Below are positions 45,693 through 50,929 of a stretch of DNA of 64,000 nt, in pieces. The stretch comes from a bacterium (lineage in GTDB: Bacteria > Electryoneota > RPQS01). Below the pieces are notes generated by a model. The model did not search any database. It was not told the origin of the DNA and worked only from the letters and a program-made list of their open reading frames with translations. The position numbers and the translations under genes are program-made. Positions within the stretch are counted from its first letter, which is position 1. Each line of letters starts with the position of its first letter. The stretch covers positions 188,932 through 252,931 of the forward strand of contig JABWCQ010000002.1 in NCBI GenBank assembly GCA_013360195.1, given 5' to 3'.

Positions 45693-46327
45693 TGGAGCTA
45701 ATCGAATTGACAGAGTCGACATATGAGGAGTGCATTGAACGAACCTGTCAATCAGTATTGGCAGGTGAATTGATCGCTTTCCCGACGGACACCGTATATG
45801 GACTTGGGGGCATGGCTTTCAGCCGGAAGGTACTGGACCGGCTCATGACGGTGAAGCCCGATCGCTCGTCCAAGCCAACGGCAATTCTCATTGAGAGCAT
45901 GATTCGATTAAGTCAATTTGGCGGAGAAGTTCCCGGACCCAAGATCGTGCACTTGGCCGAAACCTATTGGCCGGGTCCTCTGACGTTGGTTTGGCATGTT
46001 TCCAAGGCAGTTCCCGAGGAATTTCACGGGAAGGACCGCTCTTTGGGATACAGAATCCCCAATTACGAGTTCATATTGGAAGTGATGCGGCGGACGGCAC
46101 GGCCGCTCTGGGCAACAAGTGCCAATCTGGCGGGAAAGCCGCCTCCGAGATTGTTTGGCGAACTTGACCCTGTTGTCATTGAAGCCTGTGATTTGGTGGT
46201 GAAGACTAAGGCACTGCTGGGAGGCAAGGCCTCGACAGTGGTGGACGTACGAGGTAAGCAGCCTCTTGTGGTTCGAGAAGGGGCAGTGATGGAATCAGAC
46301 ATTGAGAAGATTTGGAAGAAAGGATAG
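45692..46327 (+). CDS. tsaC: L-threonylcarbamoyladenylate synthase (YrdC/Sua5)
   Basis: Makes threonylcarbamoyl-AMP for the t6A modification completed by TsaD. The 211-residue YrdC-domain protein keeps AGELIAFPTDTVYGLGGMAF, YWPGPLTLVW, GYRIPNYEF and the nucleotide-binding ATSANLAGKPPP. I set the start at GTG 45692, overlapping the lptE stop by one base, because the longer frame merely runs back inside lptE. Confidence 0.93.
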   Translation: MELIELTESTYEECIERTCQSVLAGELIAFPTDTVYGLGGMAFSRKVLDRLMTVKPDRSSKPTAILIESMIRLSQFGGEVPGPKIVHLAETYWPGPLTLVWHVSKAVPEEFHGKDRSLGYRIPNYEFILEVMRRTARPLWATSANLAGKPPPRLFGELDPVVIEACDLVVKTKALLGGKASTVVDVRGKQPLVVREGAVMESDIEKIWKKG

Positions 46328-46334
46328 CCATACA

Positions 46335-47234
46335 TTGAGACTTTTGCCCGCACTTCTTTGCGCGATGACCTTGTATTGGGCATTCCCTGGATTCGCGTTG
46401 GCGGACTCCATGGAGACATCCGATTCGACGACGATCTATGCGGTTCGCCGGGACTCGGTGGGAATCCCTCCACACATTCCTTTTTCAGTTGGCGAGCGGA
46501 TGACCTATCACATTTCTTTCAGCTCAGTTCCGGCCGGAAAAGCGGAGTTGCAGGTAGTTGATACAGTCAAAGTTGGTGATCAGTGGGCTTGGCGAATTCA
46601 GTCAAGCGCGCGCTCGGCCAAGGGCTTTGATTGGGTGTTCAAAGTCCGGGATACCATTACGACTTGGGTAGACACCGACTCCATCTATAGCCACAAGTTT
46701 CACAAGAAGCTCATGGAAGGCTTCTTCAATGATGAGAAGCTGGTGAAATTCAGCCTTGCCGACAGCCTTGCCTATTGGTGGGATGAAAAGACTGAAAAAG
46801 TTCCCAAGAAGGTTGAACCGCGAGTTCAGGATGTTCTTTCGGCCGGTTACAGAACAAGGACGGTCTCGCTGGAAGTTGGGGATACGATCGCCATCAGAAC
46901 CCATGACGTAAAGGTCACGTACGATCTGCTGGTCGTTGTTCATGCCCGAGATACCGTTCAGACTCTTGCCGGTGAGTTTGATTGTTTTGTCTGTGAACCT
47001 GTGTTGAAGAGCGGCGGGTTGTTTCAGAAGGAGCGGAAGGCAAGAGTGTATGTTTGGGTAACAGCTGACGAAAGAAGGATACCGGTCATAATGAGTTCCA
47101 AAGTGTCTTTCGGTTCGTTTATCGTTGAATTGGAGAGTTATGTTCCCGGGTTTGCCAAACCGGGAGTAAGCGAATCTGAGAAATCAAGAGCCCGAAAGGA
47201 TGGGCGAGCAGACCTCGGGGATTTCGCCCCCTAA
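46335..47234 (+). CDS. DUF3108 family exported protein
   Basis: A 299-residue secreted or periplasmic protein. After the signal peptide (cleavage near FALAD) comes the DUF3108 pattern: PFSVGERMTYHISFSSVPAGKAEL, repeated beta strands with WRIQSSARSAKGFDWVFKVRD, then GEFDCFVCEPVLKSGGLFQKE and VWVTADERRIPVIMSSKVSFGSF. The family is found in the envelope of Gram-negative bacteria and has no settled function. I took a TTG at 46335, 11 bases after AAGGA. Last gene of the uvrB-to-tsaC run. Confidence 0.82.
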   Translation: MRLLPALLCAMTLYWAFPGFALADSMETSDSTTIYAVRRDSVGIPPHIPFSVGERMTYHISFSSVPAGKAELQVVDTVKVGDQWAWRIQSSARSAKGFDWVFKVRDTITTWVDTDSIYSHKFHKKLMEGFFNDEKLVKFSLADSLAYWWDEKTEKVPKKVEPRVQDVLSAGYRTRTVSLEVGDTIAIRTHDVKVTYDLLVVVHARDTVQTLAGEFDCFVCEPVLKSGGLFQKERKARVYVWVTADERRIPVIMSSKVSFGSFIVELESYVPGFAKPGVSESEKSRARKDGRADLGDFAP

Positions 47235-47326: not shown

Positions 47327-47355
47327 TTGACACATAGTCTTTAAATAGCTAATTT
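47327..47355 (+). promoter_or_regulatory. Likely promoter for the four-gene membrane unit
   Basis: TTGACA (47327-47332) and TAATTT (47350-47355) are 17 bases apart in the 242-base gap before the unit. The leader would be about 115 bases. The -35 is perfect, the -10 is moderate. Confidence 0.6.
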
Positions 47356-47476: not shown

Positions 47477-48718
47477 ATGCTCCTTAAGTCCCTTTTGTTG
47501 GCATTCATACTCACAGTTCAAAGTTTTGCCGCGCTCGGTCAGTCTGACACGGCAATTGTTGTTTTGGGACAGGGAGCGGCACCGACGCAAGTCGTTGTTA
47601 CAGATGTTCCGAACGACGGCGGCGAGGCCTTCAGCGTTACATGGAGTCCGACTTCTCAGGTCGGATTCTCTGTTTTGCGCTTTCTCGTGATGGCAGCGGA
47701 AACGCCAAGCGGACCATTTCAGATCATGGCTGAAACCGACTCAAAGACGTCACAGGCGAGGATTTCGAGCGGTGAAGGCTGGAAGGTGGAGCCAGAAAAG
47801 TCGTTTTGGGTGAAGGTTGTTGCAGTCGATTCAACAACTGTAGCCGTTCCCGACTCGTCGAATCCCGATTCCGTTTCAGTTCGATTTGAAAAACGACTGC
47901 GCTTAAGTGAATCGGCTATTGTCGGCCCAGTGTCCTCTGAGGTTTCGTGGTTTAACTGGAATCGCGTCAACATTTTTCTCATCGTCGTCTTGTTTTACGT
48001 GTTAGTGATGTTCATGGTGAAGCGCGCGAAAACAGGTCAACCACTTTGGTTCAGGCGAATTGCAGGAATTGACGCGATAGACGAGGCTATTGGCCGCGCG
48101 ACGGAGCTCGGCAAACCGGTTCTGTATGTTCCGGGAACACAGAACATTGAGAACATCCAGACAATCGCCTCTATTCAGTTACTTACGTCCGTCGCCTCTA
48201 AGGCGGCAAATTACGATATACCGATCATCGTGCCTCTTAACCGGGCCTTCATGGTCACAGTGGCGGAGGAGGCCGTTAAGCAGGGCTTCCTCAATGCAGG
48301 GCGTCCCGATGCGTTTATGCGTGACAATGTGCGATACATGTCAGACGAACAGTTCGCGTTTACGAGCGGTGTTACAGGAATCATGATGCGTGAGAAAACC
48401 GCGGCGCACTTCTTCCTTGGTGCATTCTATGCGGAATCACTGATTCTCTCGGAAGTCGGTTTCACTTCGGGTGCCATTCAGATTGCCGGAACAGCAAACA
48501 CACACCAGCTACCGTTCTTTGTGGTCGCGTGCGATTACACGCTGATCGGAGAGGAATACTTCGCAACGAGCGCGCTTGTCACCCGCGATTTGGAGATGAT
48601 GGGCACGCTGAAGGCTACGGACTACATGAAGGGGTTCATTATCGTTTGTCTGCTTGCTTCAATGGTACTCGAAATGTTTGGCGTGCAGTTTCTGCGCTCC
48701 TGGTTCCAAGTAATTTAG
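47477..48718 (+). CDS. Exported/membrane protein of unknown function with fibronectin-like and cytosolic alpha/beta domains
   Basis: Function not recognised. The 413-residue product has a signal peptide (1-21) and a beta-rich extracytoplasmic part (about 30-155) that looks like a fibronectin type III module. A membrane helix (about 170-188) ends in positively charged KRAKTG. A cytosolic alpha/beta region of about 195 residues follows (GKPVLYVPGTQNIENIQTIASI, KAANYDIPIIVPLNRAF, GTANTHQLPFFVVACDYTLIGEEYF), and a second helix (about 388-405) near the C-terminus. The strong GGAGGAGT site fixes the ATG. It is first in a four-gene unit closed by a terminator at 50902-50929. The cytosolic part holds no catalytic motif that I can name. 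Confidence 0.82.
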   Translation: MLLKSLLLAFILTVQSFAALGQSDTAIVVLGQGAAPTQVVVTDVPNDGGEAFSVTWSPTSQVGFSVLRFLVMAAETPSGPFQIMAETDSKTSQARISSGEGWKVEPEKSFWVKVVAVDSTTVAVPDSSNPDSVSVRFEKRLRLSESAIVGPVSSEVSWFNWNRVNIFLIVVLFYVLVMFMVKRAKTGQPLWFRRIAGIDAIDEAIGRATELGKPVLYVPGTQNIENIQTIASIQLLTSVASKAANYDIPIIVPLNRAFMVTVAEEAVKQGFLNAGRPDAFMRDNVRYMSDEQFAFTSGVTGIMMREKTAAHFFLGAFYAESLILSEVGFTSGAIQIAGTANTHQLPFFVVACDYTLIGEEYFATSALVTRDLEMMGTLKATDYMKGFIIVCLLASMVLEMFGVQFLRSWFQVI

Positions 48719-48732
48719 GTGATTACCGATAG

Positions 48733-49356
48733 ATGAAACGCGAAATACCCATTCTAATTACGCTGATTTTCGGCGTATTCATGATCGTCCAGTTCTTCAT
48801 TCCGCATCCGACTGTCAATGAGATTGCGAACAGGCTGCAGAATTGGGCAATCATTGTGATATCATTCTCGTATGTTCTGGGCTCAGCGAACATTTTGCGC
48901 ATCAACGGTGAACTTGTTTATCGTCGCGGCCCTGGCTGGCTGTACAAGCTTGTGCTTGTTGTGGCCTTTTTCATGATGATGCTTCCCGGTTTGTTCATTG
49001 GAATTTCTGAGGGCACGTGGACAAACGATCGTTTGTTCACTTACACTTATGTGCCGCTGGCTTCAACAATGTACGCGTCATTGGCGTTCTTCATTGCTTC
49101 TGCGGCCTTTCGGGCGTTCCGGGTGCGCACGTGGCAGGCATCCGTACTGGCAATTACAGCCTTGGTAGTGATGCTTGGCAGAATTCCGATCAGCCATCTG
49201 ATTTGGGATGACCTGCCGGCAGTTGTCGATTGGGTTATGAGTGTTCCTAATGCTGTTGCGCAACGTGGAATTTTGATCGGCGCGGCGCTTGGTGCAATCG
49301 CCACGGGTCTGAAGGTGATCCTTGGCATTGAGCGCAGTTACCTGGGAAGAGAGTAA
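48733..49356 (+). CDS. Multi-spanning membrane protein of unknown function
   Basis: A 207-residue integral membrane protein with about six predicted helices (about 5-24, 36-54, 70-90, 103-127, 135-152, 178-196). Short polar loops join them, including a basic segment NGELVYRRGPGWLYK. No family was recognised and no conserved catalytic motif stands out. It lies 14 bases after the gene upstream and 9 bases before the next; all four genes seem co-expressed. Confidence 0.8.
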   Translation: MKREIPILITLIFGVFMIVQFFIPHPTVNEIANRLQNWAIIVISFSYVLGSANILRINGELVYRRGPGWLYKLVLVVAFFMMMLPGLFIGISEGTWTNDRLFTYTYVPLASTMYASLAFFIASAAFRAFRVRTWQASVLAITALVVMLGRIPISHLIWDDLPAVVDWVMSVPNAVAQRGILIGAALGAIATGLKVILGIERSYLGRE

Positions 49357-49365
49357 GGAGATATA

Positions 49366-50205
49366 ATGGCTCACACAACTTTACAACGACTTGAGAAGCT
49401 CGATCGTCGCTGGGTGTTTCTGGCGATGGCGATCGCCGTAGCCTCTCCCTTATTCTTCAAGCTTGGTCTGGCTCCGAAGACCACTCCGCCTGTTAAAGCA
49501 TTCTATGACTACATAGAAGCGCTTCCTCCGGGATCGCGAGTGTTATGTTCGTTCGATTATGATCCAGGATCAAAAGCAGAGTTGAACCCGATGTGCATCG
49601 GAGTTCTTGAGCACTTGATGGTGAAGGGACACAAACCTGTTATCATTACACTTTGGTCTACCGCACCTGCACTTATCGAGCGGAATATCAATCTTATTTG
49701 CAGGGACAAATACGGCAAACAGTACGGCACTGACTACGCGTATTTGGGACTCAAAGAGGGACGGGAAGCAGTAATGGTAGCAATGGGCAAGTCGATAAGG
49801 TCAACATTCCCTGTTGACTTTTACCGTACCCCTGTAGACCAGCTACCACTCATGAACGGTGTGGAGAATTACGAACAGTTCTCGGCCCTAATCAACGTTT
49901 CAGCAGGCTATCCCGGCACAAAGGAATATGTCCAGTATGTGACATCACGCTTCGATATACCGATGCTGAGCGGATCGTCTGCCGTGTCTGTCCCAGAGTA
50001 TTCTGCTTACTTTCAGAGCGGTCAGTTGAAGGGCCTGTTGACCGGTATTACGGGCGCGGCGGAATATGAAACGCTGATCAACAAGCCGGGATTGGCAATG
50101 ACGTCGATGGACGGCCAAACAATGGGACACTTCGTCATCATAGCGTTCATTCTGTTCGGAAACATTGTGTACTTCATCATCCGTCGCGAAAAGAGCAAGG
50201 GATAA
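49366..50205 (+). CDS. Membrane protein with an extracytoplasmic alpha/beta domain, unknown function
   Basis: A 279-residue protein with a membrane helix at each end (about 16-35 and 254-272). The soluble domain of about 215 residues between them should face the periplasm. It contains GSRVLCSFDYDPGSKAELNP, KPVIITLWSTAPALIER, DYAYLGLKEGREAVMVAMG and GLLTGITGAAEYE. Its alternating strands and helices suggest a Rossmann-like fold, but no catalytic pattern was identified. A strong AAGGAGATATA ribosome binding site precedes the ATG. Third gene of the unit. Confidence 0.82.
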   Translation: MAHTTLQRLEKLDRRWVFLAMAIAVASPLFFKLGLAPKTTPPVKAFYDYIEALPPGSRVLCSFDYDPGSKAELNPMCIGVLEHLMVKGHKPVIITLWSTAPALIERNINLICRDKYGKQYGTDYAYLGLKEGREAVMVAMGKSIRSTFPVDFYRTPVDQLPLMNGVENYEQFSALINVSAGYPGTKEYVQYVTSRFDIPMLSGSSAVSVPEYSAYFQSGQLKGLLTGITGAAEYETLINKPGLAMTSMDGQTMGHFVIIAFILFGNIVYFIIRREKSKG

Positions 50206-50214
50206 GGAAGAAAT

Positions 50215-50874
50215 ATGGACTTCTTTTGGTTGTCAATAGCCGGTTTGGCGACAGTTGCCGTGCTGAGCTTCCTGTACAAGGACAATCCGCTCTATAAAAT
50301 AGCAGAGCATTTCTTTGTCGGCATCGCCGCGGGATACGTTGTGTGTACACAATTCTACAACGTATTCATACCGAATCTTTGGGATCCATTGACCAGCGGC
50401 CGCGACATGTGGCTGATAATACCATTAATCCTCGGGCTGGCACTTTTCACGCGATTCTCAAATAACTTGGGCTGGATTTCCCGCTGGCCGATGTCCGTCA
50501 TTATCGGGACGTATGCCGGCCTGGCTGTCATCGGATTCGCGTCCGGCGACATGGTGCTCCAAGTGCAGGCAAGCCTCATACCGGTGTTTGAAACGGCAAC
50601 TGTTTCGGATTTCACAAATAGTCCGAGCATCATGAATTTTCTGCAGATTCTCACAAATCCGCTTTTCACACTTGGACTGGTGTCTGTACTGTTCTACTTT
50701 TTCTTCTCAGTTGAGCATAAAGGCGGCTTGCGGCACGTCGCCTCGGTCGGCACGACTTTGTTAATGATCGGCTTCGGTGCCGGGTACGGGTATACGGTCA
50801 TGACTCGTATCGCGCTGCTTTTCGACCGATTCTACTTCCTGTTCGTCGAGTGGCTGCAGGTAGCTTCGGCGTAA
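50215..50874 (+). CDS. Multi-spanning membrane protein of unknown function
   Basis: A 219-residue protein with about seven predicted helices, starting at residue 4. Conserved-looking polar patches are KDNPLYKIAEHFFVGIAAGY near 22-41, an N/D-rich turn NLWDPLTSGRD, and a histidine in VEHKGGLRH near 167-175. No family was recognised. AAGGAAG lies 5 bases before the ATG. It is the last gene of the unit and is followed by a terminator 27 bases on. Confidence 0.8.
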   Translation: MDFFWLSIAGLATVAVLSFLYKDNPLYKIAEHFFVGIAAGYVVCTQFYNVFIPNLWDPLTSGRDMWLIIPLILGLALFTRFSNNLGWISRWPMSVIIGTYAGLAVIGFASGDMVLQVQASLIPVFETATVSDFTNSPSIMNFLQILTNPLFTLGLVSVLFYFFFSVEHKGGLRHVASVGTTLLMIGFGAGYGYTVMTRIALLFDRFYFLFVEWLQVASA

Positions 50875-50901
50875 TTCAAAGAATAGCTGCAAGAGCCAGA
50901 A

Positions 50902-50929
50902 GGCCGGTTCATGAAGAACCGGCCTTTTT
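50902..50929 (+). terminator. Rho-independent terminator of the four-gene membrane unit
   Basis: GGCCGGTTC-ATGAA-GAACCGGCC, a perfect 9-bp stem, is followed by five Ts on the + strand. On the minus strand it lacks a T run, so it mainly serves the + strand unit; lepB converges on it. Confidence 0.9.

Follow-up and report, generated by a model that had tools for sequence, protein, structure and literature searches.

A conserved four-gene membrane unit with a DUF6754 protein, and a co-occurring ATPase, in Electryoneota and other bacterial phyla

The four consecutive genes considered here, D1 to D4, lie at positions 47477-50874 of a 64,000-nucleotide window (the whole stretch of DNA analysed; GenBank assembly GCA_013360195.1, contig JABWCQ010000002.1, positions 188,932 to 252,931 of the forward strand) from a bacterium of the Electryoneota. 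They are a real, conserved and uncharacterised unit, whose gene order is shared by more than ten bacterial phyla. Because this order is kept across phyla, and an ATPase and helper proteins co-occur with the set, we suggest that D1-D4 may be the inner-membrane part of a widespread, conserved multi-protein envelope machine that is served by the ATPase, a reading to which we assign a probability of about 0.4. One conserved, uncharacterised envelope-spanning complex was also the core idea of an earlier note on this DNA, and it is supported by the order across phyla, by the duplication of the genes as a block, and by the identical presence and absence of D1 and D3. The genes are:

47477-48718, + strand: D1, open reading frame (ORF) of 413 amino acids (aa)
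48733-49356, + strand: D2, ORF of 207 aa, six transmembrane helices, both termini predicted inside
49366-50205, + strand: D3, ORF of 279 aa; transmembrane helix, periplasmic six-strand alpha/beta domain, transmembrane helix
50215-50874, + strand: D4, ORF of 219 aa, six to seven transmembrane helices

The ORFs confirm the sizes given in the earlier note, and the D1/D2, D2/D3 and D3/D4 gaps of 14, 9 and 9 bases agree with the 9-14 bases stated there.

The four-gene set across bacterial phyla

Relatives of D1 were sought in 84,980 species genomes and found in at least 585 places; the locus counts given here refer to the best 80. The lineages named among these are Zixibacteria, Eisenbacteria, WOR-3/Stahlbacteria, Cloacimonadota, Latescibacterota, Planctomycetes (including Scalindua), Nitrospira, Fermentibacteria, Coatesbacteria and Edwardsbacteria, with others in addition. 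The order D1-D2-D3-D4, which the earlier note had proposed to look for in other genomes, is intact in 63 of the 80 loci, with a median gap of 4 bases within the set. Many of the other 17 loci are broken by contig ends, and several have D1 apart from D2-D3-D4. Conservation of the set goes far beyond what chance would give. It is also present in closer relatives, with D1 and D3 occurring in the same 16 of 39 Electryoneota genomes.

Tandem D1-D4 sets occur in 22 of the 80 loci. Across the 19 loci having more than one complete set (45 sets), the paralogous sets are congruent, and all six gene-pair distance matrices correlate with r 0.80-0.92, compared with means of 0.19-0.25 when sets are permuted within a locus; none of 300 permutations reaches the observed value. 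Since the matrices agree, D1-D4 duplicate and persist as one unit, and are inherited as a block. Such behaviour would be unexpected for unrelated neighbours. It is highly improbable that the operon has been conserved while its four membrane proteins have nothing to do with each other, since the block duplication, the congruent trees and the identical presence and absence are hard to explain without a joint function. In six Zixibacteria loci there are three tandem D1-D4 sets, with orthologues in the same position from genome to genome, as though three specialised versions were required.

No described system with the composition of D1-D4 was found in Pfam, NCBIfam, PADLOC, the PDB or the open-access literature searched (PubMed Central, PMC), so that the set corresponds to no described complex in these sources. 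Likewise, no paper, function or solved structure for the system was found in the PDB and the open-access PMC literature, and a close search of a viral collection gave no relatives.

Domains on the two sides of the membrane

The earlier note could not name any of the four proteins. D1 can be named: it is a strong, full-length member of the Pfam family DUF6754 (PF20539; E 1.4e-104, 349.2 bits against a cut-off of 27). The family entry gives no function; the D2-D4 partners, the link to the ATPase and to two further proteins, c1 and c3, and the membrane topology come from the present analysis and go beyond it. The layout of D1 comprises a signal peptide, a fibronectin type III (Fn3) domain outside, a transmembrane helix, the cytosolic alpha/beta DUF6754 domain and a C-terminal transmembrane helix, and the AlphaFold2 (AF2) model has a predicted local distance difference test score (pLDDT) of 89.8. 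The domains of D1 and D3 outside the membrane are:

47585-47935, + strand: fibronectin type III-like domain of D1, residues 37-153, extracytoplasmic
47942-48703, + strand: DUF6754 domain of D1, residues 156-409, cytosolic alpha/beta domain between two transmembrane helices
49471-50091, + strand: periplasmic domain of D3, residues 36-242, assigned from the AF2 model and the positive-inside charge pattern

Residues 37-153 of D1 match titin Fn3 domains in a profile search, and Fn3 structures with a Foldseek probability of 1.00. Because this domain dominates the matches, the Foldseek search with whole D1 leaves the fold of the DUF6754 domain without a name. At a threshold of at least 97% conservation among 114 homologues, D1 has 46 conserved residues, of which 45 fall in the DUF6754 part, and the Fn3 region is variable or missing among homologues. 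In two Electryoneota relatives there are two copies of D1: a long one, extended by an additional extracytoplasmic stretch, lies several kilobases ahead of D2-D3-D4, and the other follows D4.

D2, D3 and D4 have no match above a curated cut-off in Pfam or NCBIfam, their homologues give scattered weak family matches only, and their profiles have no match among PDB sequences. D2 has six hydrophobic helices with a charge pattern that fits both ends inside, and D4 has six to seven. The AF2 model of D3 is confident (mean pLDDT 95.3, predicted template modelling score 0.89); a Foldseek search of the PDB gives no match at E≤0.001, and the top 50 listed are generic Rossmann-like matches with a template modelling score (query) of at most 0.36. 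Polar residues that are conserved and lie within or at a membrane segment are His255 and Asn266 in D3, and Arg198 in D4. With domains on both sides of the membrane, the models and topology agree with the earlier description of two multi-spanning and two alpha/beta proteins, the domain of D1 being cytosolic, with a fibronectin module outside, and that of D3 periplasmic.

The models of the cytosolic domain of D1 and the periplasmic domain of D3 show the same order of strands and helices. Homology between them is not claimed, the profile-profile score being no better than for reversed controls. A distant homology between D2 and D4, which align end to end with a score of 23.0 versus 20.4 and 22.3 for reversed controls, is not claimed either.

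A transmembrane sensor or signalling complex, in which a ligand at periplasmic D3 or at the Fn3 domain alters the cytosolic DUF6754 domain, would also be consistent with alpha/beta domains in both compartments. We regard this as quite improbable, as the annotated neighbours include no recurring kinase, receiver or DNA-binding partner, and the strictest conservation is seen in the cytosolic domain and the membrane motifs, whereas the periplasmic Fn3 domain is the part that varies or is lost.

The ATPase, c1 and c3

In Nitrospira, Planctomycetes, Eisenbacteria, Fermentibacteria and others, genes for c3 (~125 aa), the ATPase (~610 aa) and c1 (~375 aa) stand in this order directly upstream of D1. 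Near D1-D4, c1 is found in 33, the ATPase in 31 and c3 in 20 of the 80 loci, covering at least eight named groups. Across phyla, the ATPase is ~63-68% identical to the copy in the genome of the window; for c1, the identity between phyla is ~50-60%. The co-occurrence extends to whole genomes: DUF6754, c1 and the ATPase are all found in the same 31 of 148 Nitrospirota genomes, and among 50 genomes with DUF6754 loci, c1 (45 strong cases) and the ATPase are each present in 48. In the 39 Electryoneota genomes, 16 of which have D1, c3 is present in those 16 and in one weak case, c1 in 16 (15 in common with D1), and the ATPase in 14 (13 in common with D1). Within two mixed Electryoneota families, the association with D1 is clearest for c3 (p 0.005), weaker for c1 (p 0.03), and not significant for the ATPase (p 0.12). 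Contrary to the earlier note, the D1-D4 unit is not self-contained, because the ATPase, c1 and c3 co-occur with it and adjoin it in other phyla. None of the seven proteins has a PADLOC match, in line with the earlier statement that a defence role is not indicated.

The ATPase belongs to the MutL/GlmL family of ASKHA proteins (PF13941, E 1.5e-129). Both phosphate motifs are retained: DxGSTTTK is present in 22 of 23 members and DIGGATTD in all 23. It differs from this family in being longer, in scoring below the equivalog cut-off for GlmL, the methylaspartate mutase accessory protein (241 bits versus the NCBI cut-off of 475), and in being tied to membrane genes instead of glutamate mutase. c1 has a barrel-sandwich hybrid domain related to that of RnfC and NqrA, with RnfC_N matched in 10 of 20 members (best 4.9e-8) and NQRA_N at best with 1.5e-5; the reference member itself matches only weakly. 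Beyond this domain, c1 lacks the recognised parts of RnfC or NqrA, with no SLBB, 51-kDa flavin or ferredoxin domain in the 20 members, and D1-D4 include no Rnf or Nqr membrane subunits.

ATPase-c1 fusions of 930-980 aa are present in genomes with Cloacimonadota, Fermentibacteria and Zixibacteria loci, for example, which suggests that the ATPase and c1 act together. Six loci carry such fusions of a MutL-like ATPase and a c1-like part as uncharacterised stand-alone genes without D1-D4 as neighbours; the neighbours of the fused paralogue give no functional clue. In Electryoneota, the partner genes are dispersed. In the genome of the window, the genes for the ATPase (620 aa, L137:6848-8710) and c1 (at the junction of L137 and L138) lie ~11 kilobases apart on contig C14, with unrelated genes between them.

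Genomic setting and possible function

The transcription signals of the unit and the gene preceding it are:

50900-50929, + strand: intrinsic terminator, a perfect GC-rich hairpin followed by T, fold z -5.2
47327-47355, + strand: weak promoter-like site, exact TTGACA, 17-base spacer, poor -10 box
46302-47234, + strand: DUF3108 secreted-protein gene, ending 242 bases before D1

The terminator was described as perfect in the earlier note, and the hairpin, AAGGCCGGTTC-ATGAA-GAACCGGCCTT followed by T (ΔG -27.2 kcal/mol), is convincing as a real intrinsic terminator, with none of 200 shuffles as stable. The promoter placed at 47327-47355 is only partly supported. Its -35 box TTGACA (47327-47332) is exact and the spacer has 17 bases, but the -10 candidate TAATTT (47350-47355) fits the -10 box at only 3 of 6 positions, the site is absent from the consensus list of the promoter scan, and consensus matches in the region are at chance level (8 found versus 7.8 expected). 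Of the ribosome-binding sites, all taken earlier to be strong or reasonable, those of D1 (GGAGGA), D3 (AAGGAG) and D4 (AAGGAA) are good, and that of D2 is weak and distant. The DUF3108 gene is also found just upstream of D1 in other Electryoneota families (as cluster c9); in some cases the two are separated by a gene with weak similarity to the ArgZ Rossmann domain. Two genes downstream of the unit, which we take to be signal peptidase-like and LepA-like, read in the opposite direction, and the arrangement around the unit is retained in a relative of the same genus.

In other lineages, two kinds of neighbour recur. In WOR-3, genes for ExbB, ExbD and TonB are located just downstream of D1-D4, and in Zixibacteria, TolQ, TolR, TolB and Pal-like genes lie beside the ATPase and c1. 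The genes after D1-D4 in four WOR-3/Stahlbacteria loci encode, in turn, a DUF4388 protein and two proteins without a name, a pair of small membrane proteins, ExbB, two ExbD and TonB. The Tol-Pal and ExbB-ExbD systems share the envelope setting with D1-D4, but D1-D4 have no MotA_ExbB, ExbD or TonB family match in Pfam or NCBIfam. Together with the RnfC_N and NQRA_N matches of c1 and the conserved polar residues in the membrane segments of D3 and D4, these neighbours could indicate an ion- or electron-coupled membrane transducer, with c1 as an RnfC/NqrA-like peripheral subunit and D2 and D4 as an ion-conducting core. This appears rather doubtful, since c1 shows the barrel-sandwich part without the flavin, SLBB and iron-sulfur parts of RnfC, no cofactor motif is seen in D1-D4, and the ExbB and Tol neighbours are restricted to a few lineages.

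The second kind of neighbour is metabolic. In Eisenbacteria and some other lineages, glycine-cleavage genes are found upstream and a lipoate-ligase gene just downstream of the set; glycine dehydrogenase and lipoate-ligase genes occur in 8 loci each, in several lineages and often adjoining D4. These genes, the family of the ATPase and the very high conservation of the cytosolic DUF6754 domain would fit a metabolic or cofactor complex that is attached to the membrane and linked to glycine cleavage, lipoylation or B12-type chemistry, in which the ATPase would be a reactivating chaperone similar to GlmL. Such a complex is nevertheless improbable: the ATPase falls under the GlmL cut-off, the neighbourhoods of most lineages lack glycine-cleavage genes, no B12-binding protein was noticed nearby, and membrane or periplasmic parts make up half of the conserved set. 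Because the links are limited to certain lineages and point two ways, the neighbour genes leave the function unfixed.

For the envelope machine that we favour, D1-D4 would form a physical complex. D2 and D4 would make up its helical core, the DUF6754 domain of D1 may provide a cytosolic docking face for a module of ATPase, c1 and c3, and D3 and the fibronectin domain of D1 would extend into the periplasm. The ASKHA protein, through repeated rounds of ATP binding, could then assemble or switch the complex, and so transmit the state of the cytosolic side, or carry something, to the periplasmic side. The resemblance to the PilM-PilN-PilO-PilP platform, in which a cytosolic ASKHA protein serves membrane proteins with periplasmic domains, is one of analogy only. 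Membership is not claimed; D1-D4 and their partners have no Pfam match to PilM, PilN, PilO or PilP, and no pilus genes recur among the annotated neighbours.

Several observations weigh against the envelope machine. In the genome of the window, the genes for the ATPase and c1 (contig C14) and c3 (contig C18) are unlinked to D1-D4. Among the 48 genomes counted for c1, three have a weak or broken match, one genome (G029, 97% complete) has D1, D3 and c3 without ATPase or c1, and another (G023, 100% complete) is missing the ATPase. Much of the presence and absence in Electryoneota is at clade level, so that the Fisher values overstate independence. Moreover, proteins that co-occur could belong to one pathway and yet never touch, nothing points to a transported substrate or a ligand for D1-D4, and the glycine-cleavage and lipoate-ligase genes that recur nearby hint at a role in metabolism instead.

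Because the D1-D4 system is so conserved, in many candidate phyla and in Nitrospira, it should serve something basic in the envelope or in energy handling. It is possible, although tentative, that it represents an undescribed class in which a MutL-like ASKHA ATPase and a barrel-sandwich adaptor drive a D1-D4 complex that has alpha/beta domains on either face; Nitrospira and many uncultured phyla would have kept it as a core system, and Zixibacteria would have elaborated it into two or three paralogous sets. The list of D1-D4, ATPase, c1 and c3 genes now permits direct tests of the system; if the proposal is true, it would constitute a new class of ATPase-powered envelope machine, core to Nitrospira and uncultured phyla.

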